From: Halovivax gelatinilyticus
GTDB taxonomy: Archaea > Halobacteriota > Halobacteria > Halobacteriales > Natrialbaceae
Direction: 5' to 3'
Assembly: GCF_024300625.1 (NCBI RefSeq)
Contig: NZ_CP101322.1
Span: 1,563,992 to 1,627,991 of the forward strand
DNA length: 64,000 bases
Position numbers and translations under genes: made by a program. Positions 18,191-55,017 of this stretch are shown here, piece by piece. A model generated the notes under the pieces. It was given only the letters and a program-made list of their open reading frames with translations, had not been told where the DNA came from and did not search any database. Positions within the stretch are counted from its first letter, which is position 1. Each line of letters begins with the position of its first letter.

Positions 18191-18210
18191 AATGCCTATA
18201 TATTATTTAC
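18191..18210 (-). promoter_or_regulatory. Promoter of the lipoprotein array, cassette A
   Basis: The minus-strand sequence GTAAATAATATATAGGCATT overlaps the last codons of the Tat-protein gene and lies 31-50 bases before the first lipoprotein ATG. The same sequence is conserved in cassette B (23886-23905). Confidence 0.6.
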
Positions 18211-21327: not shown

Positions 21328-22886
21328 CAGTAGATCACCTCCGCGTTCCGCAGGAACTCGAGATCGGCCAGGCTCCCGTGCAGGTCGCGGATGTCCTCCG
21401 CTCCCGTGACGAGCATCGCCAGGCGCTCTAAGGCGAGTCCCCAGGCCATCACGTCGGCCTCGACGCCGAGCGGTTCCAACATTTCCTCGCGGAAGATGCC
21501 TGAGTTACCGATCTCGATCAGCTCGCCCGTCGTCGGGTGGGTGCCGAACAGCTCGAAGCTCGGCTCGGTGTAGGGGTTGTAGTGCGGTTTGAATTGAATG
21601 TCTTCGATTCCGAACTGGGCGTAGAACTCTTCGAACGTGCCCATCAGGTCCCGCACCGAGAGCTCGTCGGCCATCACCCAGCCCTCGATCTGGAAGAACT
21701 CGAGTAAGTGCGTGGCGTCGAGCGTGTCGTTCCGATAGGCCTTCTGGACGCTGAAAAATCGAGCCGGCGGCTCGATCTCTCCGATCGCCTCGCCGGAGAG
21801 GTGCCTGGTGGTGAGCGAGGTGGTGTGTCCGCGAAGCGCGAGCGCGCGGGCGAAATCTTCGTCCCACGGCGAGCGGTAGCCTTCGCCGTCCTCGCCGACG
21901 CCCTCGCGGTGGACCCGTTCGACGCGTTCGACGAGGTCTGCCGGGAGATCGTCGATGTGCGTCGGCTCTTCGATGGCGAATCGGTCCCAGTGGGTGCGCG
22001 CCGGGTGGTCCTGGGGCATGAAGAGGCAGTCGTTGATCCAGAAGTCCGCGTCGACGTGCGGGCCGTCCATCTCGGAGAATCCCATCCCGACGAGGACGTC
22101 TTTGACCCGCTCTGCGGTCCGCCGAAGCACGTGCATCCGCCCGCCGTGGATCGTCTCCGCGTCGGCTTCGACGTTGTACTCGGCGAACGCCGCGTCGCGC
22201 CAGTCGCCGCTCGTCAGCAGGTCGGGCGTCACCTGTCCGACCGTCTCGGCGGTTTCGACGCCGGCCATGAGTTCGGTCACGCCGGCCTCGGTGAGCGTCG
22301 CCGAGCGCACCGTCGTCTCGTCGCGCTCTATCAGGTCTCGGCGTTCGAGCTGCTCTAACGCGTCCGAATCGATATCGAGGTCGTCTGCGGCGACGCCGCT
22401 CGACGTTCCATCGTCCTCACCCGCGTCGTCCGCAGCCGCGGCGATCGTCGAAAGCGCGTTCGCCTCCGCGTCGACGGATGGGTCGGCGTCCGGGTTCGCC
22501 GAGAGTTCGCCGCTGTCGATCGCCCCGTAGCCCTTCCGGGCGTAGTTCGAGAGGGCGATGTCGACCTGCGGTCCCTCGAGCCCCGACGCGCCGATCACCC
22601 GCCCCATCTGGACTGGTTCGTCGGCTCCGCCGGCGTCGATGGCGGCCTCGTAGAGTCGCACCTCCGGGAGGCCGTCGGCCTCGTACTCGCGTCCTTCGTC
22701 GGTCAGTTCGACGGTTTCGTCGACGCGTTCTGATACGGCGACCAGCCCCTCTTCTTCGAGTGCGAACAGCGCACCCGTGACCGTCTCTGGGGGCAGGTCG
22801 GTCGCCGCGGCGATGGCGTCGACGGACTGTTCCTCGTCCGTACTCGCGGTCTCAAGGACCGCAACCTGTGCCTGTGGCAATTGCAT
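21327..22886 (-). CDS. pheS: Phenylalanine--tRNA ligase alpha subunit
   Basis: The 519-residue catalytic subunit has N-terminal winged-helix modules (about 1-200; DEEQSVDAIAAATDLPPETVTGALFALEEEGLV), an acidic halophilic insert near 130-160 and then the class II core. Motif 2 region is RFFSVQKAYRNDTLDATHLLEFFQIEGW, and motif 3 is VMAWGLALERLAML (about 485-498). FMPQDHPART marks the entry to the active site. It is first in the pheS-pheT operon. A weak TATA candidate (GCGCTAACTGAG) lies about 30 bases upstream. Confidence 0.97.
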   Translation of the reverse strand: MQLPQAQVAVLETASTDEEQSVDAIAAATDLPPETVTGALFALEEEGLVAVSERVDETVELTDEGREYEADGLPEVRLYEAAIDAGGADEPVQMGRVIGASGLEGPQVDIALSNYARKGYGAIDSGELSANPDADPSVDAEANALSTIAAAADDAGEDDGTSSGVAADDLDIDSDALEQLERRDLIERDETTVRSATLTEAGVTELMAGVETAETVGQVTPDLLTSGDWRDAAFAEYNVEADAETIHGGRMHVLRRTAERVKDVLVGMGFSEMDGPHVDADFWINDCLFMPQDHPARTHWDRFAIEEPTHIDDLPADLVERVERVHREGVGEDGEGYRSPWDEDFARALALRGHTTSLTTRHLSGEAIGEIEPPARFFSVQKAYRNDTLDATHLLEFFQIEGWVMADELSVRDLMGTFEEFYAQFGIEDIQFKPHYNPYTEPSFELFGTHPTTGELIEIGNSGIFREEMLEPLGVEADVMAWGLALERLAMLVTGAEDIRDLHGSLADLEFLRNAEVIY

Positions 22887-23885: not shown

Positions 23886-23905
23886 ATACCTATATATTAT
23901 TTACC
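23886..23905 (-). promoter_or_regulatory. Promoter of the lipoprotein remnant, cassette B
   Basis: The minus-strand sequence GTAAATAATATATAGGTATT is conserved with 18191-18210 and lies 32-51 bases before the lipoprotein ATG. The promoter survives although the gene is broken. Confidence 0.55.
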
Positions 23906-24989
23906 CAACGTGTTTATCGTCCCAAAAATCGTCCGGAAGCGGACCGGTCAACGACATTTCGACCGGGTACTGGTAATGGAAGTCGTCATCGTCTAATTGC
24001 GCAATCTCTGCGGCATCCAGGTCGAACCGTTCAGGGTGTGCGTTGACGGTGGCTCCGGCGTAGGCGGTCAGTCCCTCGTGGATTTCGGGGAACTCGATCC
24101 CGCGCGTTCCGGCACGCAGTAGTCGATCCGAACTCACACGGGCTTCGATTCGCTCGCGAAACGAGCCGGCGTTCGCGGGCATGATGATCTCGAACGCTCC
24201 ACCCATGTGCAGCGCACCCGGTTTACCCCACAGGTCGACCACGTCACCGACGTTGATCTCAAGTGTTTCGTTAGGTTCGAGCTTTACCTCGTACTTCGTC
24301 CACCAGCTGGTCTGTTTCCGTCCGTCCCAGTCCCAGTCGCGTTCGTAGGTTTCTGGTGGTTCGAAGTAGTCATCGTAAATTGATCCGAGTGCATCAACGA
24401 TCGTCTCAGCGTGATCAACATACGCGTCGGCACCGATCTGACTCAAGCCGAAATCGATCACGTAGTCGCTGACGTTGTTGCCTTCGCCGTCGTCGTACTC
24501 GTCGTGATAGCCACCGATCCAGTCGGAATCTGGTGATGCGTGTATGAGCCCCTCTTGTGGTCCGGCAGCGGAATCATCGTCCCAGGAGATCGCGTGTCCG
24601 GTTCGCTCTACATTGGGTAACAGCACGCCAGTGTCGGAGTGAGTGATTGCGTTTCCGTTAATTTCGAGAGAAATTATGTCCCAGTCTTTGTTTTTCCTCC
24701 CATCTGCAGTAAACTGAACTACCGAACTCGACGCGTACCCTTCCACGCTTCCGCCGTAGTTGTCGGTCGCTTCGTCACTGAACTCCCAGGTCCGGTTGAT
24801 GTCACCGCCTCCGCCGCCCGGTGGCGGATCGAACGGATTCCGATTGTCTGTCCCTGCGCCGTCATCGTCTCCGGCCGAAACCGTCTGCGAGAGCAGACCC
24901 GCACTCACGCCCGTCATCGCCGCAGTTTGGAGGAACTGCCGACGCGGGCGGCTCGATCGTCGTCGGTCGTATGGGTTGTCATTTCCCAT
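23901..24989 (-). CDS. Tat-exported protein of unknown family (cassette B)
   Basis: The 362-residue paralog of 18203-19276 starts at MGNDNPYDRRRSSRPRRQFLQTAAMTG; the twin-arginine signal is intact and in frame with this ATG. The mature protein has the same glycine/proline-rich start and the conserved blocks GGYHDEYDDGEGNNVSDYVIDFGL, TSWWTKYEVKLEPNETLEINVGD and VEMSLTGPLPDDFWD. The central part differs clearly from copy A. The TATA region of copy A is not conserved here, so expression may be reduced. Function unknown; no recognised domain. Confidence 0.8.
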   Translation of the reverse strand: MGNDNPYDRRRSSRPRRQFLQTAAMTGVSAGLLSQTVSAGDDDGAGTDNRNPFDPPPGGGGGDINRTWEFSDEATDNYGGSVEGYASSSVVQFTADGRKNKDWDIISLEINGNAITHSDTGVLLPNVERTGHAISWDDDSAAGPQEGLIHASPDSDWIGGYHDEYDDGEGNNVSDYVIDFGLSQIGADAYVDHAETIVDALGSIYDDYFEPPETYERDWDWDGRKQTSWWTKYEVKLEPNETLEINVGDVVDLWGKPGALHMGGAFEIIMPANAGSFRERIEARVSSDRLLRAGTRGIEFPEIHEGLTAYAGATVNAHPERFDLDAAEIAQLDDDDFHYQYPVEMSLTGPLPDDFWDDKHVG

Positions 24990-39814: not shown

Positions 39815-42800
39815 TTACCGCCGTGGCTGCGCTCCACCGCGTTTCGCCCGACCGATGACGAGCCCGGCCGACAGGGCGAGAACGAGCGCGAAGAGCGCGA
39901 CCAGGGGACCGAAACCGGGTATCCCGTCGTCATCGTCCGCGTCGTCGCTCTCCGGTGGCTGTTGCCCGTCGTCGGCCGGATCGTCTGCGTCGTCGTGTTC
40001 AGGTGGCTCGTCACCGTCGTCAGCGCCGGTGCCCGATTGGTCATCGTCACCGACGGCTGAATCCTCGTCGTCGCCCGCGTCGTCCGACTCGTCGTCATCC
40101 GATTCGTCAGTCCCGTCGTCCGATCCATCGTCGTCGTCATCGTCTTCGGGTGGCTCGGGGATGCCGGCCGGTTCGTCGACCGCGAACGTGGTTTCGAAGG
40201 TCGCCTCGTTTCCGGCCTCGTCGGCCACGGTGAGCGTCGCTTCGTAGGATTCACCGTCCTCGACCGTGAGGACGTGTTCCGTCCACGACGACGTGATGCT
40301 GGTCGCGTCGTCGGTCGTGACGTCCGTCCCGTCGATTTCGAGTTCGATCGAGCCCACGTCGACGCCGGACTGCTCGTCGTCGTACTCGAAGCGGACGGTC
40401 ACCTCGTCGGTGCCCGCGTCCAGTTCGTCGCCGTCTGTCGGCGAGACGTTCGTGAGCACCGGCGCGTCTTCGTCGAGCACGAGCGCGCCGTAGGTCGAGA
40501 AGCCGTGGACGTCGGCCGTGAGGAACGGATCGTCGCCGTCGTAGACGATCTCAGAGTCGACGTCGTTCCAGCCGTCGTCGTAGTGGTACAGCCCCACGTC
40601 GTCGACGGTGGCGCCGGCCGGCAGCGCGTCCTCGTCTACCGCCAGCTCGATCGTCGCGTGTTCGATCGTCCCCTCGTCGAGGTAGTGCCCTACCAGGCCG
40701 TCGAGGTCGGCGGTCAGGAAGCCGACCCCGAGTTCCTCGCCGCCGAGGTTGGCGTCGACGGCGTTCTCCGAGAGGGCGACGTAGAGGTCCTCCTCGGTGA
40801 ACGCGGCGTCCTCGACGAGTTCGAAGTCGATCGAGGTTCCGGTTTCGGCGATCTCGATCGTGCCGTCGGCGAGGGTGAAGCCGGTGTGGATCACGACCGA
40901 GGCGGTGTCTTCTCCGACGTTTCCGGCGCGGTCCGTCCCGGTGACGGTGACTTCGTACTCGCCGGAGTCGCCGAACTCGAGCGTTCCCTCGAACGTCGTG
41001 TTCTGCCCGTCGGTCGGTTCGAGCTCGACCGGATCGAGCTGGGCCGTCGACGGATCGGTGAACTCGACGTCGACCGTCGGCGGTTCGACCAGCGGCGCGT
41101 CGCTCTCGACGACGATCGTGGCATCCTCGTCGTCGACGTCTTCGATGCTGACCGACATCGACGGATCGTCCCGGTCGATCGTGAGCGCCCCGTCCCAGGC
41201 GTCCGTGTCGAACGTGCCTCGTTCGTCGACGGCGACCACGGAGAGATCGTAGCGCCCGTCGTCTGGAAGATCGTCGAGCGGGACTGACGCACTCCAGGTC
41301 TCTCCGCTCGCGAGCGCGTCCAGATCGGATTCTGTCGCGGGCTCGAGAACGGTGTAACTCGTCTCTTGGGATGATACCTGGAGCGTCACCGACTCCAGGT
41401 CGAGATCCGCGGCGACGTCGACCTCGACGGTGGCCTCGTCGCTCGCGTAGACGAGGTCGACGTCGGCGTCCGCATCGAGCCCGGTCGAGGCGCCTTCGAC
41501 GCCGGCGATCGTCGCTTCGACGGTCGGGGCGGTGACGGTCAGTTCGCCGACCGAGCGCTCACCGAGTTCGAGCTCGTAGGTGCCGACCTCGTCGATGGTG
41601 GCCGAGACGTTGATGGCGCCGAGGTGGTAGAAGCCGGGGGCGAGTTCGACCTCCCGAGTACCGAGGACGGTCTCTTCGTCCGTCTCGGTGTTGGTGGCGA
41701 CGAGTTCGATCTCCTCTGGGCCATCGATCGTTCCGTTCTGGTAGATACTTCCGACGACGTGGAATTCGCCGACGCCTTCGACGACCTCGTCTTCGGACGC
41801 GGAGGCGGCGATAACCTGGATATCGGACGTTGCTGGGAGCACTTCGATAGTGCCGGCGTAACGGTCGCCGAGTTCGAGGTCGTACGTTCCGGGATCGTCG
41901 ATGGTGTTCGAGATGTTGATGGCGCCGAGGTGGTAGAAGCCGGGTGCGAGTTCGACCTCCTGGCTGCCGAGGCTGATCTCGTCGTCCGTCTCGGTGTTGT
42001 TCGCGACGAGTTCGATCTCCTCCGTGCCGCCGGTGGTCCCGGCCTGATAGATACTCCCGACGACGTGGAACTCGTCTTCGCCGTCGACGATCTCGTCTTC
42101 GGAGGCGGAGGCGGCGATGACCTGGATATCGGAGTAGGCCTCTTCGACTTCGATGGTACCGGCGTAACGGTCGCCGAGTTCGAGATCGTAGGTGCCGGCC
42201 TGGTCGATGGTGGTGGAGATGTTGATGGCGCCGAGGTGGTAGAAGCCGGAGGCGAGTTCGACCTCCTGGCTGCCGAGGCTGATCTCGTCGTCCGTCTCAG
42301 TGTTGTTCGCGACGAGTTCGATCTCCTCCGTGCCGCCGATGGTCCCGGCCTGGTAGATACTGCCGACGACGTGGAACTCGTCAACACCTGCGACGATCTC
42401 GTCTTCGGAGGCGGAGGCGGCGATCACCTGGACGTCGGAGTAGGCTTCTTCGACCTCGATCGTACCGGCGTCGCGGTCGCCGAGTTCGAGATCGTAGGTA
42501 CCGGCCTGGTCGATGGTGGTCGAGATGTTGATCCCGCCGAGGTGGTAGAAGCCGGGGGCGAGTTCGACTTCCTGGCTGCCGAGGACGATCTCTTCGCCCG
42601 TCTCGGTGTTGGTGGCGACGAGGTCGATCTCCTCTATACCTTCAATGGTTCCGGCCTGGTAGATGCTCCCGAGGACGTGGAACTCGTCGACGCCCGCGAC
42701 GATCTCGTCTTCGGACGCGGAGGCGGCGATGACGTCGATCTCGGAGTACGCTTCCTCCACGACGATCTCGCCCGCGCCGTGACCGCCGAGTTCGAGATCG

Positions 42801-45800
42801 TAGGTGCCGGGATCGTCGATCTGGAAGTCGATCTCGATCGCACCGAGGTGGTAGTACCCCGATTCGAGCGTGACCTCCTGACTACCCAGGTGCGTTTCCT
42901 CGCTCGAATTCTGGTCGATGGCGACGAGATCGATCTCCTCGGTCCCGCTATCACCGGCCTGGTAGATACTTCCGGTGACGTTGGCCTCCTCACCTTCGAG
43001 CATTTCGATCTCCGAAACCGTCGCGGCGATGACCTGGATGTCCGAGGGCGACTCGTCGACGCCGACCGTGCCGACGTCGTAATCGCCGAGGGTGAGATCG
43101 TACGTGCCGGCGTCGTCGATCGACGTGGTGATGTTGAGCCCGCCGAGGTGGTAGAAGCCGGGTTCGAGTTCGACGGACTGGTTTCCGAGGTGAATCTCCT
43201 CACCGCTCTCGTTGTTCGTCGCGACGAGGTCGATCTCCTGTGAGTCGTCGACGGTTCCGTTCTGATAGATGCTGCCGACGACGTGGAACTCTTCACCCTC
43301 CGTGAGGACCATTTCAGAGACCGACGCGGCGACGACCTGGACGTCGGAGTAGGCTTCTTCGACCTCGATGGTACCGGCGGGGCGGTCGCCGAGTTCGAGG
43401 TCGTAGGTGCCGGCGTCGTCGACGGTGGTGGTGATGTTGATGGCGCCGAGGTGGTAGTAGCCCGGTTCGAGTTCGACATCCTGGCTGCCGAGGACGGTTT
43501 CTTCGCCGTCGTCGTCGACTGCGACGAGGTCGATCGTCTCGGATCCGCCGATCGTTCCGCTCTGGTAGATGCTGCCGATGACGGAGAACTCGCCTTCTCC
43601 GGCGACGATCTCGTCTTCGGAGGCGGAGGCGGCGATGACCTGGATGTCGGAGTAGGCTTCCTCGACTTCGATGGTGCCGGCGGGGCGGTCGCCGAGTTCG
43701 AGGTCGTACGTTCCGGGATCGTCGACGGTGGTGGTGATGTTGATGGCGCCGAGGTGGTAGTAGCCGGGTTCGAGTTCGACTTCCTGGCTGCCGAGGACGG
43801 TCTCTTCGCCGTCGTCGTCGACTGCGACGAGGTCGATCGTCTCGGATCCGCCGATCGTTCCGCTCTGGTAGATGCTGCCGATGACGGAGAACTCGTCTTC
43901 GCCGGCGACGACCTCGTCTTCGGAGGCGGAGGCGGCGATGACCTGGATGTCGGAGTAGGCTTCTTCGACTTCGATGGTACCGGCGGGGCGGTCGCCGAGT
44001 TCGAGATCGTAGGTGCCGGGATCGTCGATGGTGTTCGAGATGTTGATGGCGCCGAGGTGGTAGAAGCCGGGGGCGAGTTCGACCTCCCGAGTACCGAGGC
44101 TGATTTCGTCGTCCGTCTCGGTGTTGTTGGCGACGAGTTCGATCTCTTCTGGGCCGCCGGTGGTCCCGGCCTGATAGATACTCCCGACGACGTGGAACTC
44201 GTCTTCGCCGGCGACGATCTCGGTTTCGGAGGCGGAGGCGGCGATGACCTGGATGTCGGAGTAGGCTTCCTCGACTTCGATGGTGCCGGCGGGGCGGTCG
44301 CCGAGTTCGAGGTCGTACGTTCCGGGATCGTCGACGGTGGTGGTGATGTTGATGGCGCCGAGGTGGTAGTAGCCGGGTTCGAGTTCGACTTCCTGGCTGC
44401 CGAGGACGGTCTCTTCGCCGTCGTCGTCGATTGCGACGAGGTCGATCGTCTCGGATCCGCCGATCGTTCCGCTCTGGTAGATGCTGCCGATGACGGAGAA
44501 CTCGTCTTCTCCGGCGACGATCTCGTCTTCGGAGGCGGAGGCGGCGATGACCTGGATGTCGGAGTAGGCTTCTTCGACTTCGATGGTACCGGCGGGGCGG
44601 TCGCCGAGTTCGAGATCGTAGGTGCCGGCCTGGTCGATGGTGTTCGAGATGTTGATGGCGCCGAGGTGGTAGAAGCCGGGGGCGAGTTCGACCTCCTGGC
44701 TTCCGAGAACGGTTTCGTTGCCGGTCTCCGTATTGGTCGCGACGAGTTCGATCGTCTCCGGCCCGGCGTCGGTGCCCGCCTGGTAGATGCTGCCGACGAC
44801 GTGGAACTCGTCTTCGCCGGCGACGATCTCGGTCTCGGAGGTCGACGCGGCGATGACCTGGATGTCCGACTCCTCGTCCGTCACCGTCACTTCGCCGACG
44901 AACACATCGTTCACGGAGAGCGAGACCGTCGCGTTCGTCGCCCCGTCTAGGACGTCTTCGGTCGGCGTCCACGTGAGCGATTCACCGCGTGTGACGCTAC
45001 CGGCCGCCACGTTAGCGGTCGTCGAGTCGACCGAACCGTCTCCGATCTGTTCGCCGTAGCCATCCTCGACGAAGAGTTCGAGCGTTTCCTCGCCGTCGAC
45101 GTCGCCGTCGTTCAATAGATCGACGTCCACCGTGAGCGTCTCGCCGAGGCCGACGGTCTCGTCGACGCTCGTCCCGAAGACGATCACGTTCGCCGGGGCG
45201 AGGACGTCGACCGTGCCGGCGTCGAAATCGCCGACGGAGACGTCGTATTCGCCGGGTTCGTCGAACGTGTGGGTAAATTCGATACCGGTAGTCTCGTTCT
45301 GCTCCAGATCGACCGTCACCGTGTCGACGGTCGTATCGTCTACCTCGAGTGCCACCGTCACGTTGCCGTCCGACCCGCCGACGTTCTCGACATCGGCGGT
45401 GATCGTCACGTTCTCGCCCGCGACGAGTTCGTCGGGACTCAGATCGACGTTCGAGACCGACGCGACGGGCACCGGCCCCTCGCTGAACGCGCCGAATGTG
45501 GAGAACTCGGTCACGTTCTCGGCCCAGACGTACTGTTCGGTCGTGTTGACGCCACTGACGTAGGCCTCCTCCGCCGGGGATGACCAGCTTTCGTTCAGCC
45601 GCCAGATCTCGAGCGTCGATTCGTCCATCCCGGTCACGTCCGCGGCGTCGTAGTGGACGTGCAGTTGTGCCAGGTGAGGCACGTCGCCGCTTGCGGTCAC
45701 GTTAACGAACGCACCGATCGGGGTGCGCTCATCGGGGAGCGTCTCTGGCGTAGACGTCCCGTCGATCACGACGTCCTGTGCCTCGAACGAGAACGTCGTC

Positions 45801-48800
45801 CCGCCGAGGACGATCGATTCGAAGGCGGTGTCCGTCGCCGAACCGACCGAGACGTCGGTTTCGCTGTCGGTGACCGTCACGTTCGACAGGGTGTTGTCCG
45901 TACCGGCGATCGAGAGCCCGACGGTCGCGCCGTCGACCGTGACGTCCGACACCTGATTGTTCGTCGGCGACCCGAACATACCCACGCCCGTAGAGGCGTT
46001 GGTGATCGAGACGCCCGAGACGGCGCTGTCGGCGGCCGAACCGGAGACGCTGATGCCGGTTCCAGTGACGTCCTCGACGGTCAGGTTCGTGACGGTCGTC
46101 CCGTCGCCGAAAATCGACAGCCCGCCCTGGGCTCCCGTGACCTGGACGTTCGTGAACGTGTTGTCGTAGTTATCACTTGGTGCAAGGTAGACGGCGCTCG
46201 CGGTTCCACCGGTGACGGTCACGTCGGTGAACTCGTTGTTCTCCGCGTTGCTCGAGATGCTGACTGCACGTCCATCGCTGTCCACGTACGTAACGTCGGT
46301 AAACTCGCTGTAGACGGCATTACTGAGCCCAATAGCGTCTTCGTCGGTGTCGGCGACAGTCACCGACTCGAAGGTATTCCCCCGAACGGGCGGGTCGGTA
46401 CTCACGCTTGTAAGGGAAATCGCCGTTCCGTGCTCGCCACTCGCGGTCACGTTCGACAACGAGTTCCAGTCCCCGTTGACGCGAATGTCGTGCCAGCCGT
46501 TGCCGGAGACGTTCACCCCGTCGAACGTGTCGCCGTTCGACGACTCGAGGTTCAGGCCGTATCGGTCGTTGTCGTGGGCTTCGACGTCGACGAGCGTGTT
46601 CGACGACGAACCGCTGGCCGTTCGGATACCGGCGACGCCATCGGAGGCGCTCACCCCGATGAACTCGTTGTTGCTCGCGGCCCAGCCGAGGTTGATCGAA
46701 CCCGGGTTGGAGCCAGCACTCTGCTCAGTGTCGTACGCGGTGACGTTGGTGAAGACGTTCCCGCTGGCCGCACTGTGGGAGAATCCACCCACGATGAGCG
46801 CTCGGCTTTCGGTGTAGCGAACCGTGAGGTTCGTCACCTCGTTGTCGTGCGCGTTAGCGAACTCGGCACCAGTATCTCCGTTCTCGACGAGCACGTCCGT
46901 GACCACGCCGTCACTTCCAGAGAAGTACAATCCGGTGTCCCAACCGTCTAGCGTCACGTCCTCGACGGTGACGTCGTCCACCCCGTCGACGTGGATGCCA
47001 TACTGAGATTCGTTGTCGTCCACGCCGACGCCCTGGATCGTGTGCCCGTTGCCGTCGAAGTGCACGTCGCTCGCGGTGATCTGGATACAGGTGTTGGATC
47101 CCGCGAGATCGCCGGTCAGCGTGTAGTTGCCCGGCATCGAGATCGTCGTACAGGTGCCGATCTCGATGGTCTCGCCCGTGAGGATTGCCACCTGCTCGGT
47201 GATCAACTCGTCCTCGCTCCGGACGGTGACGTAGTCCAGGCCGGCGTCCGCACTCGTCGTCGACCAGGTGAGCGTCAGCGTCTCATCGTCGCCCTCGGCC
47301 AGGGTGACGTCCTGGCTGTCGACCGTACTCCCGTCGAAGTCCTCGAGTTCGATCGTCTGGGTTCCCGTCTCCCCACCCGCGTTGGTGACAGTGACGTCGA
47401 TCACGAGGTCGTCGCTCGCGTCCACCGGCGAGTTCGTGTCGTCGATCGCCACGTCGAAGTGCGCGTCGAGCGGCGCCGCATCGACGGGGTCCTCGTCGAG
47501 GAACGGCTCGTAGTCGATGGCCGTTCCGACCGAGTCACCCTGTCCGGTACCCTCGCCACTCGGGCCACTTTCGTGACCCCACCAGTTGTTGGTGGCGTCC
47601 AGACACGGCCCATCGTAGAGCCCTTCACACGAATCTTCAACGTAGGTGACGCCGTCAGCGTTACCCGAGATGCTGTTGTACACGATCAGGACGTCGTCAG
47701 ACTCGTCGAGATCCTCGAGAACCGCGATCCCTGTTCCCGGGTTGTTCCAGATCGCGTTTTCGGTGACCACGACGTCCGAAAACGCCGGGCTTAATCCACC
47801 GTCGACGTCCAGTGAGAGGCCGTCCTCATTGTTCGAGATCGTGTTCGATTCGATCAGGAAACCGCCACCAGAGCCCGACTGCGTCAGATCGAGTCCGTGG
47901 CCGGCGTTGTCGGCGATCACTGAGTCGGCGATCACCAGGTTCGAAAGCCCAACGCCGTAGACGCCGTCGCCGTCGTTGTTCCGGACAGCGCTCTCGGTCA
48001 GCTCGAATCCCGACGCGGACGAGATGTCGATCCCGACACCGTTGTTCTCGATGGTCGCGTTCTCGGCGTGGACGTCGTCGGATTGCGAGATCGCCAGCCC
48101 GACCCCGTCGTTGTCGACGATTTCGACGCTGGTCAGCTGCGCACCGTCGACCGAATTGTATCCCCACTCCCCGAATACGACGCCGTCGCCGCCGCTCCCG
48201 GCCACCGTGACGTGCTCGATGAGTGGCGCTACCACGCCCCGCATCACGAGGCCGTCCCCGTCGTTGCCCGAAATCGTGCCGTCGGTGAGCGTGGCGTCGT
48301 CGACGTCCTCGATCCAGACACCGGTCGAAGCGCCGTCGAGAACGCTGATATCGTGGAGCAAAACCGTTTCCGCAGTGTGTACGTGAATACCAGTCCCGTC
48401 GCGTTCCGTGACGTCGGTTTGCTGAACGTCCACGCTGCCGACGTCCTCGAGCCAGATGCCGCTGCCCAGACCGGGATCGACCGCGGTGTTCGTAACTGTC
48501 ACCGACCCCGAACTCTCGACGTAGATCGCCGCCGGCGTCCCGCCCGCCACGGTCGACTCCGTCACGGAGACGTTCCCCGAATTCGTGACGTGGAGCCCGA
48601 GGCCGTCCGCGAGGCTTAGGTCGTCGACGTCAACATCGCCGCTCTCGGTGATCTGTATCGATGCGAGGTCGTCGCCGACGTTGACGCCTCCGACGTCGAC
48701 GTCGTCGGCGAACGCCACGATCAGTTGCCCCACGTCGGCGCCGAAGGTGTGGTCGTCGTCGCCGAGGAACACCTTAATCGGGCCGCCGTTGACCGTCGAG

Positions 48801-51800
48801 CCGTTGAACTCGTGCTCGAAATGGGATTCGTCACCCTCGATCAGGACGCCGGTCTGGAAGGTGTTGTCGTGCGCGATGGTGTCGGTCGCCTCGTCGAGGA
48901 AGAGGTCGGCGTGGTTGTTCGACGCCGTGTTGTTGTGGGCCGAGAGTTCGTCGGCGCCGTCGACGACGATGCCGTGGCTCGGGTTGTCCGTGACGGTGTT
49001 CCAGGCAATCTCGACGTCGTTGGCCTGGTGGGTCGCTCGAATTCCGCCGTCGCCGTTATCGGTGATTTCGTTGTGTTCGACCACTCCCTCGGCCCGGTGG
49101 AGGTTGATACCGTACCCGGCGGCCCCGGAAATCGTGTTGTCGTGCAGGTCCAGGTCCTCGGTTATCCACCAGCTGTTCGACGAACTGAAGTGAATTCCGT
49201 TGCTGCCCGCGTCCGTCACGGTGTTCCCGTGAATGGTTGTCCCGTCGAGCACGTTGCGTACCCAGATGCCGTGGTCTTCGCTGGCGGTCACGGTGTTGTT
49301 CACGAGCGTCGCGTAGCTGGACCGATCGCCGTTACCGTTGATAGCGATCCCGCTGGCGCCGGCGTTCTCGATGTGGTTTTCCTCGATCGTCACGTCCGCC
49401 TGGTTCGTATAAATACCGTGATTTGTTCCGCCGGTGACGGTGTTGTTCAGCGCCGTTCCGTCCGAGTCGAGGAGCCTGATCGAGACGCCGGTACCGTCCT
49501 CGACGACGTTCGAATCGACGAGCGCCGAATCGGAGTTTCGGACGGTGATCGGCTGCCAGCCGTCGGCGACGTAGTTCTCTGTGATCACGATGCCAGGCGA
49601 GTCCCAGACGGAGATCCCGTCGGAGTTCGCCACGAGGTCGTTGTCCGCGACGGTCGTACCGGGCGAGCCGCGAACCGAGATCCCGATCCCCGCGTTGGAC
49701 ACATCGTTCCCGTTGACGTCGTTTGCGGAGACCTCGGCATCCGTGGATCCCTCGACGCTAATGCCGTGTCGGCCGTTGTCGTTTGCGGTATTATCCGACA
49801 CGACCACGCCGTCCGAATGCTCCACGCGCAGCCCGTTTCTGTCGTTATCGGTGACGACGTTGTACTGAATGACGACATCCGTGGATTCGTACACGCCGAT
49901 TCCGCCGGGTTGGGTCATCGTGAATCCGCGAATCGATCGGTACGTGCTGTTCGTGACCGTGTTATCGGTGAATTCGGCCCCGTCGCTGTAGGCGACCTGT
50001 ACACCCACGGCAGTACCGTCGATTTCGAGCCCGTTCACGTGAAGGTCAGTTGTATCGACGAAGATGACCTGACCGGGGTTCGACGGCATGGCCGGATCGA
50101 TGGCTCCCGAAACGTAGTGAATTGGGGCACCGCCGGCGGTGTTCGTCGTTTCGATGGTGTGCAGGTAGTGATCGAGTTCGTCACCGTCGAGGAACAGTCC
50201 CCGTTCGAACGTGTTGTCTCGCACCTCGGCGTTCGTCGACTCGCGCAACACGAGGTCGACGGCCTGTCCGGACGACGTCGTATTCTCCACGATCGTCCCG
50301 TTCGATGTTTCCACGAAAATTCCGTGTTTGCTGTTCGCTATCGCCGTGTTGTCCAGGAGGGTAACGTCCACCGAATTGGTCACGTAGAACCCGGTTCCGA
50401 AGTGGGTATGTCCGTTGTCGTTCGCCGTGTTCGTCGTCACCGTAATCGCCTCGGAGTCGTCGATCACGATCCCGTCGTCGTTGTCGATCGCGTCGTTCGC
50501 CTCGACGACGACATCGTTTGAGTCGACGATCCAGATCGCGTTGCCGTCGGTGACGTCGTCGCCCTGCGTGAAGTCGCTGTTCCCGGTCACGTTGTTGTGT
50601 TCCACGACGCCGCCATCGGCTCCCTCGAGCACGATCCCGGCAGCGTTGTTCGTGACTTCGTTTTCGGCGAACGTGCCGCCGACCGACCCCAACACGTGAA
50701 TCCCGCTCTCGTCGTTACCGTCCAGCGAGTTCTCGCTGACCTGTACGCCGGTGGCGTCGACGACCCGGATGCCGTCCGCCCCGTTGTCCGCCGCGTCGTT
50801 TGCGACGACCTCGACGTCGTCGCCGCCGACGACGCGGATGCCGTACACATTGTTCTCGCTCGCGTCGTTGTCCTCGACGACGGTGGCGTCGGCCCCGGAG
50901 ACGCGGATCCCGTCGCGCCCGTTTGCCGTCGCGGAGTTGTTCGTCACCGTGCCGCCGGTCGCGTCGGCCACGTAGATGCCGACCTCGCCGTTGTTCGTGA
51001 CGACGTTCTCCCGGACGATCGCGTCGGTCGAACCCGAGAGACTCAGCCCGTGGTCCAGGTTGTCGCTGACGGTGTTCGCCTCGACGATCGCGCCATTCGA
51101 GGCGTGGATCGCGAGCGCGCCCGCGTCTCCCCACTCCTCGATGGTGGCTCCCGAGACGGTGTTGTTCCGTACCTCGGCGTCGTCGCTGAACGCGATCTGC
51201 AGCGGCGCGGCCGAGCCCTCGAAGGCGTGGTCTTCGACGACGAGGTCCGTCGCGTCGACGAAGATGTGCTGGCCCGCGCTCTCGTCGACTGCCGGCGCGG
51301 TCTCGCCCGCGGAGTAAACCAGCGCCGCCCCGTCGACCGTGTTCCCGTCGACGGTGTGGACGAAGTGGTCCAGAATCTCGCCCTCGAGCAGGATTCCCGT
51401 CTCGAACTCGTTGTCCACGAGTTGGGCGTTCGTCGCGTTCTGAAGCACGACGTCGACGCCGAAGTTGCCACCCGAAATGTTGTTCGAGTCGAGCGTCACA
51501 CCGCCGGACTCCGCGACCAGCACCGACGGCGTTTCGGGGTTGGTGGTCCGCTCGTTGTCGGCGATAACGTTGTTCGAGAGGGTGACGTCCGTCGAATCCG
51601 CGATCTCGATTCCCTCCCAGTTGTCCACGAACGTGTTCGCGTCGACGGTGACGCCGGTCGACTCGACGATGTCGATTCCGTCCCGGCTGTTCTCGAAACT
51701 GTTCGCGTCGACGGAGACGTCGGTCGAACCGTCGACCACCAGCGTCCCCGCGCCGTGTTCTCTGACGTCGTCGAACAAATTGTCCGTTACCACGATCCCC

Positions 51801-52651
51801 TCCGAGTCGATCGCGGCGATGGCGCTCCCCGATCCTTCGAATTCGTTGTTCAAAATCTGCACGTCGCTCGCGATGTCGACCTCGACGCCGACGTCGTTTC
51901 CATCGATCGAACTGTCCTTGATCTCGACGCCGTCGGCGCCTCCGACCTCGATCCCGATCGGACTGTTCGTGACGTCGACGTTCTCGACGATCGCCCCGTG
52001 GGCTCCATTGAGCCGGATACCGTGGCTGTCGTAGTGTTCGACTCTGAAGTTCTCGATGGTGACGTTCTCGGCCGTGACGGAGATCCCCACGTTGTCACCC
52101 CAGCTTCGAGAGAGGGTCGGCGTGTCGCCCACACCGACGAGGGTGAGCCCGTCCGTCGCGATATCCAGCTCCCCCTGGTAGACGCCGGTCTCGACGCAGA
52201 TCGTGTCACCGGGAGCGGCAGCGTCGATCGCGTTCTGGATCGACTCGCCGTCTTCGACGGTCAGATCACACGACTGGGTACTGGTGGACGTCGTCTGCAC
52301 CGGGTCGAGGTCGCTAGCATTGCCGGACTCGCTAGCCGTTCCATCGCCCCCATCCGACTCGTCAGACCCGTTCGTCGCTCCATCGTCCCCGTCTGACCCG
52401 GACGCTCCATCTCCGTCACCCGCATCATCGCCGTCGTCCCCGGCGACCGACGTCGAATTCGTCCCCTCCGCATCGAGCCCCGTCGATACTAATCCGTCGG
52501 CTTCGCCGTTCTCCGTACCGTCGTCGACGCCCGTCGCGCCTGCGGCACCGACGGGTGCGAAGACCGAGGTCAACATCAATATCGAGAATAACACGGCAAA
52601 CGCCTGACTTCTACAAAATCCGCTACGTGCACCCGTGGACCCATTGCTCAT
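39815..52651 (-). CDS. Giant PGF-CTERM surface protein with two beta-helix regions and eleven tandem repeats
   Basis: The protein has 4278 codons. Order: signal peptide (about 1-37), an Asp/Gly/Ser linker, a NosD-type parallel beta-helix (about 127-1690; repeated 'DNxVxxNxxDGI' coils, ending near NNWWGHESGP), a CARDB-like sandwich, a second beta-helix (about 1815-2325) and CARDB-like domains (about 2390-2590). Eleven repeats of about 100 residues follow (about 2593-3705), then Ig-like domains, an acidic Pro/Asp/Glu linker and a C-terminal anchor GIPGFGPLVALFALVLALSAGLVIGRAKRG (PGF-CTERM). The last motif marks archaeosortase A processing and lipid attachment at the cell surface. Many N-x-S/T sites suggest heavy N-glycosylation. 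It is probably an adhesin or polysaccharide-binding protein; no enzyme motif was recognised. Confidence 0.93.
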   Translation of the reverse strand: MSNGSTGARSGFCRSQAFAVLFSILMLTSVFAPVGAAGATGVDDGTENGEADGLVSTGLDAEGTNSTSVAGDDGDDAGDGDGASGSDGDDGATNGSDESDGGDGTASESGNASDLDPVQTTSTSTQSCDLTVEDGESIQNAIDAAAPGDTICVETGVYQGELDIATDGLTLVGVGDTPTLSRSWGDNVGISVTAENVTIENFRVEHYDSHGIRLNGAHGAIVENVDVTNSPIGIEVGGADGVEIKDSSIDGNDVGVEVDIASDVQILNNEFEGSGSAIAAIDSEGIVVTDNLFDDVREHGAGTLVVDGSTDVSVDANSFENSRDGIDIVESTGVTVDANTFVDNWEGIEIADSTDVTLSNNVIADNERTTNPETPSVLVAESGGVTLDSNNISGGNFGVDVVLQNATNAQLVDNEFETGILLEGEILDHFVHTVDGNTVDGAALVYSAGETAPAVDESAGQHIFVDATDLVVEDHAFEGSAAPLQIAFSDDAEVRNNTVSGATIEEWGDAGALAIHASNGAIVEANTVSDNLDHGLSLSGSTDAIVRENVVTNNGEVGIYVADATGGTVTNNSATANGRDGIRVSGADATVVEDNDASENNVYGIRVVGGDDVEVVANDAADNGADGIRVVDATGVQVSENSLDGNDESGIHVLGSVGGTFAENEVTNNAAGIVLEGADGGVVEHNNVTGNSDFTQGDDVTDGNAIWIVDSNDVVVEANDAIDNDDGIVIDDSEAITVTTNTANDNGHTHFGTGFYVTNSVDVTLLDNTAIANSKHGIFVETSNGTIVENTTSSGQAVDLVLRESTNAEVRDNTFERGLFLDGDELDHYLHTIETTNTAGGAPIHYVSGAIDPAMPSNPGQVIFVDTTDLHVNGLEIDGTAVGVQVAYSDGAEFTDNTVTNSTYRSIRGFTMTQPGGIGVYESTDVVIQYNVVTDNDRNGLRVEHSDGVVVSDNTANDNGRHGISVEGSTDAEVSANDVNGNDVSNAGIGISVRGSPGTTVADNDLVANSDGISVWDSPGIVITENYVADGWQPITVRNSDSALVDSNVVEDGTGVSIRLLDSDGTALNNTVTGGTNHGIYTNQADVTIEENHIENAGASGIAINGNGDRSSYATLVNNTVTASEDHGIWVRNVLDGTTIHGNTVTDAGSNGIHFSSSNSWWITEDLDLHDNTISGAAGYGINLHRAEGVVEHNEITDNGDGGIRATHQANDVEIAWNTVTDNPSHGIVVDGADELSAHNNTASNNHADLFLDEATDTIAHDNTFQTGVLIEGDESHFEHEFNGSTVNGGPIKVFLGDDDHTFGADVGQLIVAFADDVDVGGVNVGDDLASIQITESGDVDVDDLSLADGLGLHVTNSGNVSVTESTVAGGTPAAIYVESSGSVTVTNTAVDPGLGSGIWLEDVGSVDVQQTDVTERDGTGIHVHTAETVLLHDISVLDGASTGVWIEDVDDATLTDGTISGNDGDGLVMRGVVAPLIEHVTVAGSGGDGVVFGEWGYNSVDGAQLTSVEIVDNDGVGLAISQSDDVHAENATIENNGVGIDISSASGFELTESAVRNNDGDGVYGVGLSNLVIADSVIADNAGHGLDLTQSGSGGGFLIESNTISNNEDGLSLDVDGGLSPAFSDVVVTENAIWNNPGTGIAVLEDLDESDDVLIVYNSISGNADGVTYVEDSCEGLYDGPCLDATNNWWGHESGPSGEGTGQGDSVGTAIDYEPFLDEDPVDAAPLDAHFDVAIDDTNSPVDASDDLVIDVTVTNAGGETGTQTIELEDFDGSTVDSQDVTLAEGDDETLTLTWSTTSADAGLDYVTVRSEDELITEQVAILTGETIEIGTCTTISMPGNYTLTGDLAGSNTCIQITASDVHFDGNGHTIQGVGVDDNESQYGIHVDGVDDVTVEDVTLDGWDTGLYFSGSDGVVTDVLVENGDTGAEFANAHDNEVTNLTVRYTESRALIVGGFSHSAASGNVFTNVTAYDTEQSAGSNPGSINLGWAASNNEFIGVSASDGVAGIRTASGSSSNTLVDVEAHDNDRYGLNLESSNGDTFDGVNVSGNGWHDIRVNGDWNSLSNVTASGEHGTAISLTSVSTDPPVRGNTFESVTVADTDEDAIGLSNAVYSEFTDVTYVDSDGRAVSISSNAENNEFTDVTVTGGTASAVYLAPSDNYDNTFTNVQVTGAQGGLSIFGDGTTVTNLTVEDVTGTGISVSGSAADSAVSGVSITNASTGVGMFGSPTNNQVSDVTVDGATVGLSIAGTDNTLSNVTVTDSETDVSVGSATDTAFESIVLGGTTFSFEAQDVVIDGTSTPETLPDERTPIGAFVNVTASGDVPHLAQLHVHYDAADVTGMDESTLEIWRLNESWSSPAEEAYVSGVNTTEQYVWAENVTEFSTFGAFSEGPVPVASVSNVDLSPDELVAGENVTITADVENVGGSDGNVTVALEVDDTTVDTVTVDLEQNETTGIEFTHTFDEPGEYDVSVGDFDAGTVDVLAPANVIVFGTSVDETVGLGETLTVDVDLLNDGDVDGEETLELFVEDGYGEQIGDGSVDSTTANVAAGSVTRGESLTWTPTEDVLDGATNATVSLSVNDVFVGEVTVTDEESDIQVIAASTSETEIVAGEDEFHVVGSIYQAGTDAGPETIELVATNTETGNETVLGSQEVELAPGFYHLGAINISNTIDQAGTYDLELGDRPAGTIEVEEAYSDIQVIAASASEDEIVAGEDEFSVIGSIYQSGTIGGSETIDLVAIDDDGEETVLGSQEVELEPGYYHLGAINITTTVDDPGTYDLELGDRPAGTIEVEEAYSDIQVIAASASETEIVAGEDEFHVVGSIYQAGTTGGPEEIELVANNTETDDEISLGTREVELAPGFYHLGAINISNTIDDPGTYDLELGDRPAGTIEVEEAYSDIQVIAASASEDEVVAGEDEFSVIGSIYQSGTIGGSETIDLVAVDDDGEETVLGSQEVELEPGYYHLGAINITTTVDDPGTYDLELGDRPAGTIEVEEAYSDIQVIAASASEDEIVAGEGEFSVIGSIYQSGTIGGSETIDLVAVDDDGEETVLGSQDVELEPGYYHLGAINITTTVDDAGTYDLELGDRPAGTIEVEEAYSDVQVVAASVSEMVLTEGEEFHVVGSIYQNGTVDDSQEIDLVATNNESGEEIHLGNQSVELEPGFYHLGGLNITTSIDDAGTYDLTLGDYDVGTVGVDESPSDIQVIAATVSEIEMLEGEEANVTGSIYQAGDSGTEEIDLVAIDQNSSEETHLGSQEVTLESGYYHLGAIEIDFQIDDPGTYDLELGGHGAGEIVVEEAYSEIDVIAASASEDEIVAGVDEFHVLGSIYQAGTIEGIEEIDLVATNTETGEEIVLGSQEVELAPGFYHLGGINISTTIDQAGTYDLELGDRDAGTIEVEEAYSDVQVIAASASEDEIVAGVDEFHVVGSIYQAGTIGGTEEIELVANNTETDDEISLGSQEVELASGFYHLGAINISTTIDQAGTYDLELGDRYAGTIEVEEAYSDIQVIAASASEDEIVDGEDEFHVVGSIYQAGTTGGTEEIELVANNTETDDEISLGSQEVELAPGFYHLGAINISNTIDDPGTYDLELGDRYAGTIEVLPATSDIQVIAASASEDEVVEGVGEFHVVGSIYQNGTIDGPEEIELVATNTETDEETVLGTREVELAPGFYHLGAINVSATIDEVGTYELELGERSVGELTVTAPTVEATIAGVEGASTGLDADADVDLVYASDEATVEVDVAADLDLESVTLQVSSQETSYTVLEPATESDLDALASGETWSASVPLDDLPDDGRYDLSVVAVDERGTFDTDAWDGALTIDRDDPSMSVSIEDVDDEDATIVVESDAPLVEPPTVDVEFTDPSTAQLDPVELEPTDGQNTTFEGTLEFGDSGEYEVTVTGTDRAGNVGEDTASVVIHTGFTLADGTIEIAETGTSIDFELVEDAAFTEEDLYVALSENAVDANLGGEELGVGFLTADLDGLVGHYLDEGTIEHATIELAVDEDALPAGATVDDVGLYHYDDGWNDVDSEIVYDGDDPFLTADVHGFSTYGALVLDEDAPVLTNVSPTDGDELDAGTDEVTVRFEYDDEQSGVDVGSIELEIDGTDVTTDDATSITSSWTEHVLTVEDGESYEATLTVADEAGNEATFETTFAVDEPAGIPEPPEDDDDDDGSDDGTDESDDDESDDAGDDEDSAVGDDDQSGTGADDGDEPPEHDDADDPADDGQQPPESDDADDDDGIPGFGPLVALFALVLALSAGLVIGRAKRGGAQPRR
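41536..44873 (-). repeat. Eleven tandem ~303-nt repeats inside the giant gene
   Basis: Each unit encodes about 100 residues of the form SDIQVIAASASE...VVGSIYQ...VELxPGFYHLGAINI...DxGTYDLELGDR. Units 2, 4 and 5 form one subtype (DDDGEETVLG, PGYYHLGAINITTTV). Units 1, 3 and 8-11 form another (NTETDDE, PGFYHLGAINIS), and units 6 and 7 are the most diverged. The near-identical units are consistent with recent unequal crossing-over. Confidence 0.92.
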
Positions 52652-52670: not shown

Positions 52671-52724
52671 TGAACATAACGTAGCGCTTACCCCGAGGTG
52701 CGGGTGGCAGTTACCTCGAGGTAA
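52671..52724 (-). promoter_or_regulatory. Promoter of the giant gene with two operator-like sites
   Basis: A TATA-like TACGTTATG (about 52671-52684, minus) lies about 25 bases before the ATG. Directly upstream are TTACCCCGAGGTG at 52688-52700 and a perfect 14-bp palindrome TTACCTCGAGGTAA at 52711-52724. They share the core TTACCyCGAGGT and their centres are 23 bp apart, about two helical turns. Confidence 0.55.
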
Positions 52725-52858
52725 TTGGGAAAATTGATAGGTTATAGTGGAACCGTCGCGACGAGGGGTGATGCGCCGCTGTGGCGGACCGAACGATCGT
52801 CCAGCGTTCGATCGACGACGCGACACCCGACAGGTCCACGCGACCTCCGCTCTAACGG

Positions 52859-54913
52859 TCACGATGTCTCGATCTCGAACCGGGCGCCGCCGTCTGCTCC
52901 CTCGCGGACCCCGACGTGCCACCCGTGGGCTTCGACGACGTCTCGGACGATGGCGAGGCCGAATCCAGCCCCCTCGCGTCTGGTGGTGTGGCCCCGCTCG
53001 AACACGTACGGCCGGACCGATTCCGGAACGCCCGCGCCGTCGTCCTCGACGAAGAACCCGCGATAGACGTCGTCTCCCTCGCGCGCTTCGTCGATGCCGC
53101 GAGGGATTTCGTGGCTCCCGCCGTCAGATTCGGTTTCGAGCACTCCGACCCGAACGGTTACGGGTCGGTCGTTGTGGTCGACGGCGTTTCGAAACAGATT
53201 CTCGAAGACGTGGCGCAATCGATCGGCGTCGCCCTCGACCGTCCAGTCGGACGGGAGCGAACGCTCGAGCGTGCATCCGTCGGTCTTCGTCGCCGTCCAC
53301 GATCGCTCGACGACAGAGCGGAGGTCGACCGGTTCGGTCTCGGTGATCGTCGTTCCGGCCCTGGCCATCGTCAAAAATTGTCGAATCATCCGCTCCATCC
53401 GGTCGAGGACCGATTCGACCATCGCCACATCCTCCGGATCGCGTGACTCTCTGGCCAGCCCGGCGTAGGTCTTCGCCATGCCGAGCGGGCTCTGTAAGTC
53501 GTGACTGACGACGCCGGCGAATTCGTCGAGGCGCCGGTTCGTCCGCTCGAGTTCGCGCTCGCGCTCGTTTCGCTCGGTGACGTCCCGGATGCTGACGACG
53601 ACGCCGCCGACGATGTCGTTGTCGAGCAGATCGACCGAGCCGCCTTCGAGCCCGATCCAGGAACCGTCGCGGTGGCGGCCCCGGTACTCGAATCGCGTCT
53701 CGTCGTCCGGTCCCGTTCGAAGCTGTTCGAACGCTTCGATCGCTCGCGGCCGGTCGTCCTCGTGGACGTACTCGAACACAGTCTCTCCGACGAGGTCGGC
53801 GGGTTCGTACCCGAGAACGGTGCGGACGGATGGACTCACGTACGTGATCTCGCCCTCGCCGGTCACCACCACGACGACGTCGGAGACGTTCTCGATGAGC
53901 GCCTGGAAGCGTCGTTCCGCCCGGCGCTGCTCGGTGACGTCTCTGAGCATCAACACCGCCCCGTCGACTCGCTCGTCGCCGACGATCGAGGCGGTCGCGT
54001 CGACGATCCGTCCACCGCGAGAGAGTGTCAACTCGCCCCGATCACCGTCGAGAACCGGGCCGCTTTCGGGCAGGACGTCGCGTATCGGCTCGCCCAGCGA
54101 GACGTCGCCACCGACCAGCGTTCGGGCCGCCGAGTTGTAGTCGACGACGCGTCTGTCGTCGTCGACGACCAGGTAGCCGTCGCGCATCTCGTCGACGACG
54201 CGGTCGCGGGCGATCGGAACGAGGTCGAGCCAGCGGTACCGGTAGAGGGCGATCGCGATGAGGATGCCCGTCGCGCCGAATCCCCAGACCGAGTAGTTGA
54301 TCGCGGTCACGCCGCCGAAGGCGAGGACGTTCGCGGCACCCGGAATCAGCGGTGCGAGCACGACGAGTCGCGACTGCTTGTGGTAGACGCCGCTCCCGCG
54401 GGCGTCGACGAACTCGACGAAGAAGAGGAAGATGCCGCCGGCAGAGAGCGACCAGTTCCAGAAGACGTAGAGCCAGTACCCGACGTTCTGGTACTCGACG
54501 ACCGGGAGGAGGACCTGCGTGTACTCCATCGGCTGGTGCATCCAGTGGTGGATCGGGTCGGTCCAGATGACGACGAGCCACGCGCAGGTGCCGAGATAGA
54601 TCAGTCCGAGCCGGCCCGGACGAAGCCACTCGGTTCGCCCCGTGTACGCGAGCGCGAAGTGAAACAGCCCGGTCGCCATGATAACGGCTCCGGCGTTGAT
54701 CACGATCGATAGCACCAGTCCGACGGTCGGATCGGTCTCGACGAGCAGCAGTCCCTGCGGGATGGTCCACAGCGAGATGCCGACGAGAAACCCGGCGAGC
54801 GGGACCACGTCCTGATCGGATCGCGTTCTGAGGATCTGGACGCCGAGACCGGCGTTCAAGAGCCCGATCCCCACGAGAGACGCCGCGTGGAGCGACGTGA
54901 ACGCGTCAGACAC
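52859..54913 (-). CDS. Membrane sensor histidine kinase with PAS domains
   Basis: The 684-residue kinase has an N-terminal seven-TM region (about 1-240, with WTDPIHHWMHQPMEYTQ), a first PAS-like domain (about 245-360) and a second PAS/PAC (FQALIENVSDVVVVVTGEGEITYVSPSV to VVVSIRDVTERNERE). HisKA follows with the phospho-His in VVSHDLQSPLGMAKTYAG (about residue 471), then the HATPase core: N-box FENLFRNAVDHN, G1 VEDDGAGVP and G2 GAGFGLAIVRDVVEAHGW. The GTG at 54913 (VSDAFTSL) is chosen because the TATA-like GTATTTGAC lies about 30 bases upstream; an upstream GTG would add 30 residues. No response regulator is adjacent. It is divergent from the NUDIX-eIF2B gene. Confidence 0.92.
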   Translation of the reverse strand: MSDAFTSLHAASLVGIGLLNAGLGVQILRTRSDQDVVPLAGFLVGISLWTIPQGLLLVETDPTVGLVLSIVINAGAVIMATGLFHFALAYTGRTEWLRPGRLGLIYLGTCAWLVVIWTDPIHHWMHQPMEYTQVLLPVVEYQNVGYWLYVFWNWSLSAGGIFLFFVEFVDARGSGVYHKQSRLVVLAPLIPGAANVLAFGGVTAINYSVWGFGATGILIAIALYRYRWLDLVPIARDRVVDEMRDGYLVVDDDRRVVDYNSAARTLVGGDVSLGEPIRDVLPESGPVLDGDRGELTLSRGGRIVDATASIVGDERVDGAVLMLRDVTEQRRAERRFQALIENVSDVVVVVTGEGEITYVSPSVRTVLGYEPADLVGETVFEYVHEDDRPRAIEAFEQLRTGPDDETRFEYRGRHRDGSWIGLEGGSVDLLDNDIVGGVVVSIRDVTERNERERELERTNRRLDEFAGVVSHDLQSPLGMAKTYAGLARESRDPEDVAMVESVLDRMERMIRQFLTMARAGTTITETEPVDLRSVVERSWTATKTDGCTLERSLPSDWTVEGDADRLRHVFENLFRNAVDHNDRPVTVRVGVLETESDGGSHEIPRGIDEAREGDDVYRGFFVEDDGAGVPESVRPYVFERGHTTRREGAGFGLAIVRDVVEAHGWHVGVREGADGGARFEIETS

Positions 54914-55017
54914 GAGTGACAGAGGGTGGCTCGCTGTCAAATACGTTGTGGAGCCCGGTGGCCGACGCGCCGGGACGATTCCGAAGGCAATTCCACCCGG
55001 CACGCGTACGCACGTCC

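Follow-up and report, generated by a model that had tools for sequence, protein, structure and literature searches.

The window that we analysed is a stretch of 64,000 nucleotides from the genome of Halovivax gelatinilyticus (G000:C1:1563992-1627991; genome sequence of 3.70 Mb, 95.5% complete). One of its genes (39815-52651, minus strand) encodes a giant surface protein of 4278 aa with right-handed beta-helix/NosD repeats (Pfam), a signal-peptide-like start and a hydrophobic C-terminus (both read by eye); we take this C-terminus to be of the PGF-CTERM type. Upstream of it on the same strand lies a histidine kinase gene (52859-55003, minus strand; 7TM, PAS, HisKA and HATPase domains; exact start uncertain), and between the two genes stand two putative operator sites, neither assigned to a strand. 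The distal, stronger site, TTACCTCGAGGTAA, is a perfect 14-bp palindrome at 52711-52724; the proximal, weaker site, TTACCCCGAGGTGC, occupies 52688-52701, and on the minus strand the half nearer the gene reads GGTAAGC. Both the palindrome and the related second site had been reported in the earlier note, and we verified their positions: the first bases of TTACCTCGAGGTAA (52711) and TTACCCCGAGGTG (52688-52700) are 23 bp apart. The accompanying statement that the two sites share one face of the helix holds only roughly (at 10.5 bp per turn, 23 bp makes about 2.2 turns); in relatives the spacing is 22 or 23 bp. Elsewhere in the window, two minus-strand genes (18203-19222 and 23901-24917) have near-identical openings, MTGVSA.LLSQTVSAG...RNPFDPPPGGGGGDI, and form a duplicated pair (about 339 aa) on either side of two long genes (19543-22880), presumably those for the phenylalanyl-tRNA synthetase subunits.

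An exact search of the 3.70-Mb sequence with the 12-mer TTACCYCGAGGT gave three matches, all at this locus (two of them are both strands of one palindrome), and none elsewhere. This exact 12-mer, being unique to one locus, was discarded as the motif, and the real motif emerged once the centre was left free. With up to three mismatches allowed, the 14-mer TTACCTCGAGGTAA has 96 matches in the whole genome versus 32 for the reversed pattern (the loci of the 96 were inspected in part, with no split into coding and intergenic matches). Perfect palindromes of at least 14 bp number nine in the window, compared with a mean of 12.3 in 60 first-order Markov simulations; palindromes with a 12-base core that recurs within 100 bp with at most two mismatches number six, compared with a simulated mean of 2.9, and the present pair, with two mismatches, is one of these six. 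Within the window alone, the palindrome and its pairing are not clearly beyond what chance produces, and the case rests on relatives. A functionless pair arisen by chance would agree with these window counts, but the same pair, at the same distance from the ATG, stands before homologous genes in other genera, and the permutation controls in 58 regulator loci (below) likewise speak against it; we regard such an origin as scarcely credible.

The exact 14-mer is found in 9 of 125 genomes of the family, including the present one (reversed control, 0). In three of these (G033, G103 and G097) it precedes giant genes; those of G033 and G103 are homologous to the present one, and the distal site upstream of them is identical to TTACCTCGAGGTAA. 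In three further genomes (G044, G045 and G046) it is flanked by an HxlR-receiver gene on one side and, on the other, by a divergent gene (assigned by Pfam to DUF2334 in G044) with a glycosyltransferase gene behind it. The copy in G040 is separated by 165 bp from the gene of a predicted membrane protein of 144 aa, and the gene context of the copy in G123 is uncertain. The order in G033, G103 and G025 is kinase, receiver-ATPase, HxlR-receiver-HalX gene, sites and giant gene, and since G025 combines this order with a different palindrome centre (TTACC-GTTC-GGTAA), we generalised the motif to TTACC-N4-GGTAA. The present genome has four such sites (reversed control, 0); those outside this locus lie upstream of a 248-aa gene and before a DUF7344 gene, and one is paired. 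This pair, at G000:C1:1972862-1972898 (L115, L076), has its sites 23 bp apart, the second of them degenerate, with a TATA-like stretch after them; on that side, the start of the closest called gene (890 aa without a Pfam match) is 710 bp distant. Across the family, a paired pattern occurs at eight places in 7 of 125 genomes, and the reversed control once.

We also measured the position of the sites relative to the gene start. All 11 giant genes in this survey, namely the present one and ten more (lengths as read, 1400-4300 aa), have their ATG 73-76 bases away, counted from the first base of the distal site, and at the other measured sites the start falls at 74-78 bases in 12 of 19 cases (30 sites in the survey; the weak site of L142, close to the called start, was left out). 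The ten other giant proteins all match the present one in sequence, with identities that range from 27.5% across 795 aa (L137, E 2e-29) to 51% across 2905 aa (L138), and these matches persist with the low-complexity filter on, though the proteins are repetitive. The site is thus found upstream of homologous target genes at a conserved distance; this distance favours 52651 as the ATG and implies that the promoter is leaderless, with its TATA element at 52680-52673. The TATA region had at first been read beside the sites on what is probably the wrong side, where the AT-rich stretch 52725-52750 is gene-distal; by comparison with relatives, the element is probably on the gene side, at GTTATGTT (52673-52680, minus strand), about 26 bases before the ATG and aligned with AGTTATAG, ATTATATA and GTATATAT. 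A probable BRE, GCGCTAC (52681-52687, minus strand), abuts the proximal site, and its first G, C and G are kept in 17, 17 and 15, respectively, of 18 aligned promoters. These 18, chosen for a visible second site, share ACTTACC-N4-GGTAACC, then tACC-N4-GGTtAGCG, then the TATA element.

In a set of 33 promoters chosen regardless of a second site (and anchored on the distal site if two sites are strong), a second match with up to three mismatches lies 22/23 bp to the gene side of the first in 16; with up to four mismatches, the best adjacent offsets (+23/+24) collect 21 matches, compared with a maximum of 11 in 200 shuffles of the flanks. Weaker matches also occur at +11 and +33/+34, a hint of half-sites that keep to the helical phase. 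A promoter of this kind is also present in Natronorubrum halalkaliphilum (L229), a genome of the same family; a scan for bacterial promoters and terminators, which is not meant for archaea, gave no match in our sequence. This layout bears directly on the idea that the two sites pair as a hairpin in the 5' leader of the giant-gene transcript. A minus-strand stem does join them at -26.7 kcal/mol, but its z of -1.80 is weak (13 of 200 shuffles were as good), and the degenerate second site of many relatives would pair poorly. Transcription from this promoter should not include the sites, since the conserved TATA element is downstream of them and the ATG follows about 26 bases later. With so modest a z, and a layout that puts the sites upstream of the transcription start, we rejected a hairpin or attenuator and consider an RNA element very improbable.

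Because a regulator gene adjoins the sites in G033, G103 and G025, we examined 58 HxlR-receiver loci (672 kb), representing all HxlR-receiver homologues with E of at most 1.3e-30 among the matches listed for the 125 genomes. The perfect motif TTACC-N4-GGTAA occurs 15 times between genes, in 14 of these loci, and never inside a called gene (genes were called by a simple codon model, so that 'intergenic', 24% of the bases, is approximate). None of 29 permuted half-sites has more than one intergenic match (one has two inside genes), and 12 other spacers have none. With up to one mismatch, there are 37 intergenic sites in 31 loci and three inside genes, the best control reaching seven loci; the remaining 27 loci have no intergenic site at this threshold. 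Many of these loci are close orthologues and not independent (for example, L060-L062 with L147; L149, L150 and L157; L057 and L064; L120 and L128; L125 and L127), and 6 of the 14 perfect-site loci were first met via the motif, yet are also among the homologue matches; L154 and L155, found by the motif only, were left out of the 58. Among 20 loci with an HxlR-only gene (taken by rank in the homologue list, skipping two G074 matches near contig starts), a perfect site is present in four and a site with up to one mismatch in seven, the other 13 having none, compared with zero perfect and at most two one-mismatch matches for permuted half-sites. The palindromic site is thus linked to genes of the HxlR-receiver-HalX class beyond the controls, and since HxlR-only loci are also enriched over theirs, the motif follows the HxlR domain. 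In L176, L182 and L185, from three genomes, TTACC-N4-GGTAA lies in a spacer beside an HxlR-only gene, and the product of the gene adjoining this spacer begins, as we read its motif, like an FAD-dependent oxidoreductase.

Genes of at least 1100 aa that start inside the 58 loci have a site within 400 bp upstream in 11 of 21 cases and none in that interval in the other 10; one of the 11, L142, departs from the common layout, in that its one-mismatch site ends 14 bp upstream of the called start. The earlier note had put forward the pair of dimer sites as a switch for the giant gene. Neither of the two outcomes that the note named as refuting this was observed: in the regulator loci the generalised motif is far from equally frequent inside coding sequence (0 of 15 perfect matches, and 3 of 40 with one mismatch allowed), and each of the ten other giant genes measured, all homologous to the present one, has a site upstream. 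This comparison with relatives makes control of the giant gene by a paired dimer site the best reading. HxlR-receiver genes of a second clade (L060-L062, L147-L150 and L157) stand divergent to a DUF2334-type gene (for L060 alone by Pfam assignment); in seven of these eight loci, a single palindrome lies 76-77 bases away from the ATG of that gene (L148 was read from another ATG).

We then turned from regulator loci to the DNA pattern alone, searching 392 genomes of the order for the full layout (TTACC-N4-GGTAA, 18-19 bases, GTWAGC). It occurs at 12 places in 11 genomes (reversed control, 3), 10 of them with an HxlR-receiver gene no more than about 6 kb away: six in the family (G008, G019, G025, G033, G103 and G117) and four in two other families (G343, two in G365, and G387; receivers identified by eye in these four). 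The exceptions are the present genome and G386, where the place lies on a 14-kb contig of which 9 kb was read. Since the six family places had served to derive the pattern, they do not count as independent; a clean test is given by the five non-family places, four of which are near an HxlR-receiver gene. Mostly, the genes beside these five are small exported-protein operons with a signal-peptidase-like gene; in G387 the adjoining gene is one for a receiver. Of the loci L225-L228, from other haloarchaeal families, three have exported-protein operons with the layout, the site in L225 faces a receiver gene instead, and an HxlR-receiver gene is near in three of the four.

On a genome-wide basis, the correlation of site count with the presence of the regulator is weak: the 125 genomes average 1.48 sites with a full-length regulator and 1.16 without one (control, 0.33 and 0.43). 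Of 20 further sites, sampled in list order from G005 (skipping G008:C2 and G019:C3, already met, and the G009 and G010 sites), three have an HxlR gene within 1 kb. A single regulator for every TTACC-N4-GGTAA site is therefore unsupported, and similar sites may serve other proteins, or part of them may be due to chance.

In the present genome, the receiver-ATPase and HxlR-receiver genes are missing between the kinase and the giant gene, so that the kinase gene alone adjoins the sites; adjacency of the regulator gene is typical, not required. The genome has four HxlR-domain matches, one of which is an HxlR-receiver gene (G000:C1:1682482-1683234) 66 kb away, and with the local gene missing, its product is the likely binder, although a further regulator gene could be missed in an assembly that is 95.5% complete. 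Pfam finds only HxlR in this product (PF01638, 79.4 bits), with neither Response_reg nor the HalX that it detects in the relatives L057, L058 and L117; the receiver becomes visible in an alignment of the 58 members, where the acidic pair, the phosphoacceptor Asp and the Lys are all present. In the tree, a clade of seven rows (95/90) unites the product with L119, L117, L116, L058, L057 and L064, and the product groups more weakly (90/62) with the last five of these; L117, L058, L057 and L064 are encoded beside giant genes with sites. In the 42-row clade that includes the product, the phosphoacceptor Asp is kept in 39 members and the Lys in all 42, compared with 11 and 12 of 16 in the second clade. 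Among genomes of the genus, G000 and G002 combine a full-length regulator match with the presence of sites (four and two, respectively), while G001, G003 and G004 have no site and only weak best matches to the regulator (E 1e-17 to 1e-21). There is no TTACC-N4-GGTAA site within the 13 kb around the G000 HxlR-receiver gene (L130). One could suppose from the absence here of two genes present in G033, G103 and G025 that the operator is a relic, its regulator lost with them and its sites now unbound in this species; against this, the distal site is intact (14/14) while the stretch between the sites has partly changed, and the genome has the gene of a related full-length regulator at another place. 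We consider a relic doubtful.

The conservation of the sites, their layout and their linkage to HxlR-receiver genes, all obtained by computation, point to one main reading, to which we give a probability of roughly 70%: we infer that the palindromes are a two-dimer operator bound by a winged-helix response regulator of the HxlR type (HxlR-receiver, often with HalX). One regulator dimer would occupy the perfect distal site, TTACC-N4-GGTAA, and a second dimer the weaker site, which is 22-23 bp closer to the gene and borders on the BRE/TATA of the leaderless promoter. Phosphorylation of the receiver, most simply by the histidine kinase encoded in the adjoining gene, would lead to cooperative binding. 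As to the sign of control, a regulator at this position would more likely recruit TFB/TBP, and thereby activate, than block them. The same operator and regulator class could instead serve repression, the dimers next to the BRE excluding TFB/TBP until phosphorylation or some other signal releases them. In the aligned promoters, the proximal site borders directly on the BRE/TATA, near enough to hinder TFB, and the bacterial relatives include repressors such as YodB, whose solved chain our regulators match in sequence. The better-conserved site, though, is the distal one, well upstream of the TATA element at a fixed distance, which suits activator contacts better, and Bacillus HxlR itself is called a positive regulator (in a title cited in PMC7835342). 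We judge repression unlikely, though far from negligible. Under the two-dimer reading with activation, one may tentatively go further, at slightly less than even odds: HxlR-receiver-HalX proteins may be a widespread class of true DNA-binding response regulators of haloarchaea that turn on surface and exopolysaccharide genes from a rigid, BRE-docked two-dimer operator, with the kinase at this locus acting via the regulator encoded 66 kb away.

DNA-binding response regulators are described as rare in archaea in PMC5847659, whose Table 1 lists the HxlR-REC-HalX architecture of haloarchaea and which states that the HalX domain has no documented function. The regulators adjoining our sites have this same domain order (Pfam plus alignment); the census entry describes no target gene or operator, and we found no report of either for the HxlR-receiver-HalX class in the open-licence PMC literature. 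The operator, promoter layout and list of target genes given here make this class testable, and if the proposed reading is true, a two-component signal would be linked to a very large surface protein and to genes of exopolysaccharide type. The HxlR domain is common to our regulators and the HxlR/DUF24 regulators (Bacillus HxlR, YodB and YtcD; PF01638), and they match the solved HxlR and YodB chains in sequence. The dimeric binding of DNA attributed to the HxlR family in PMC7835342 fits the palindromic form of the sites. Unlike the HxlR/DUF24 regulators, whose matched chains have 107-168 residues, the haloarchaeal proteins have the DNA-binding domain fused to a receiver and often to HalX, and their candidate operator is a pair of sites before an archaeal TATA promoter. 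In its working, the proposed system resembles that of the Bat/GvpE-type haloarchaeal activators, in which the activator site is likewise immediately upstream of the BRE/TATA. Those activators, with their site next to the BRE, have a DNA-binding domain and a motif unrelated to the ones described here.
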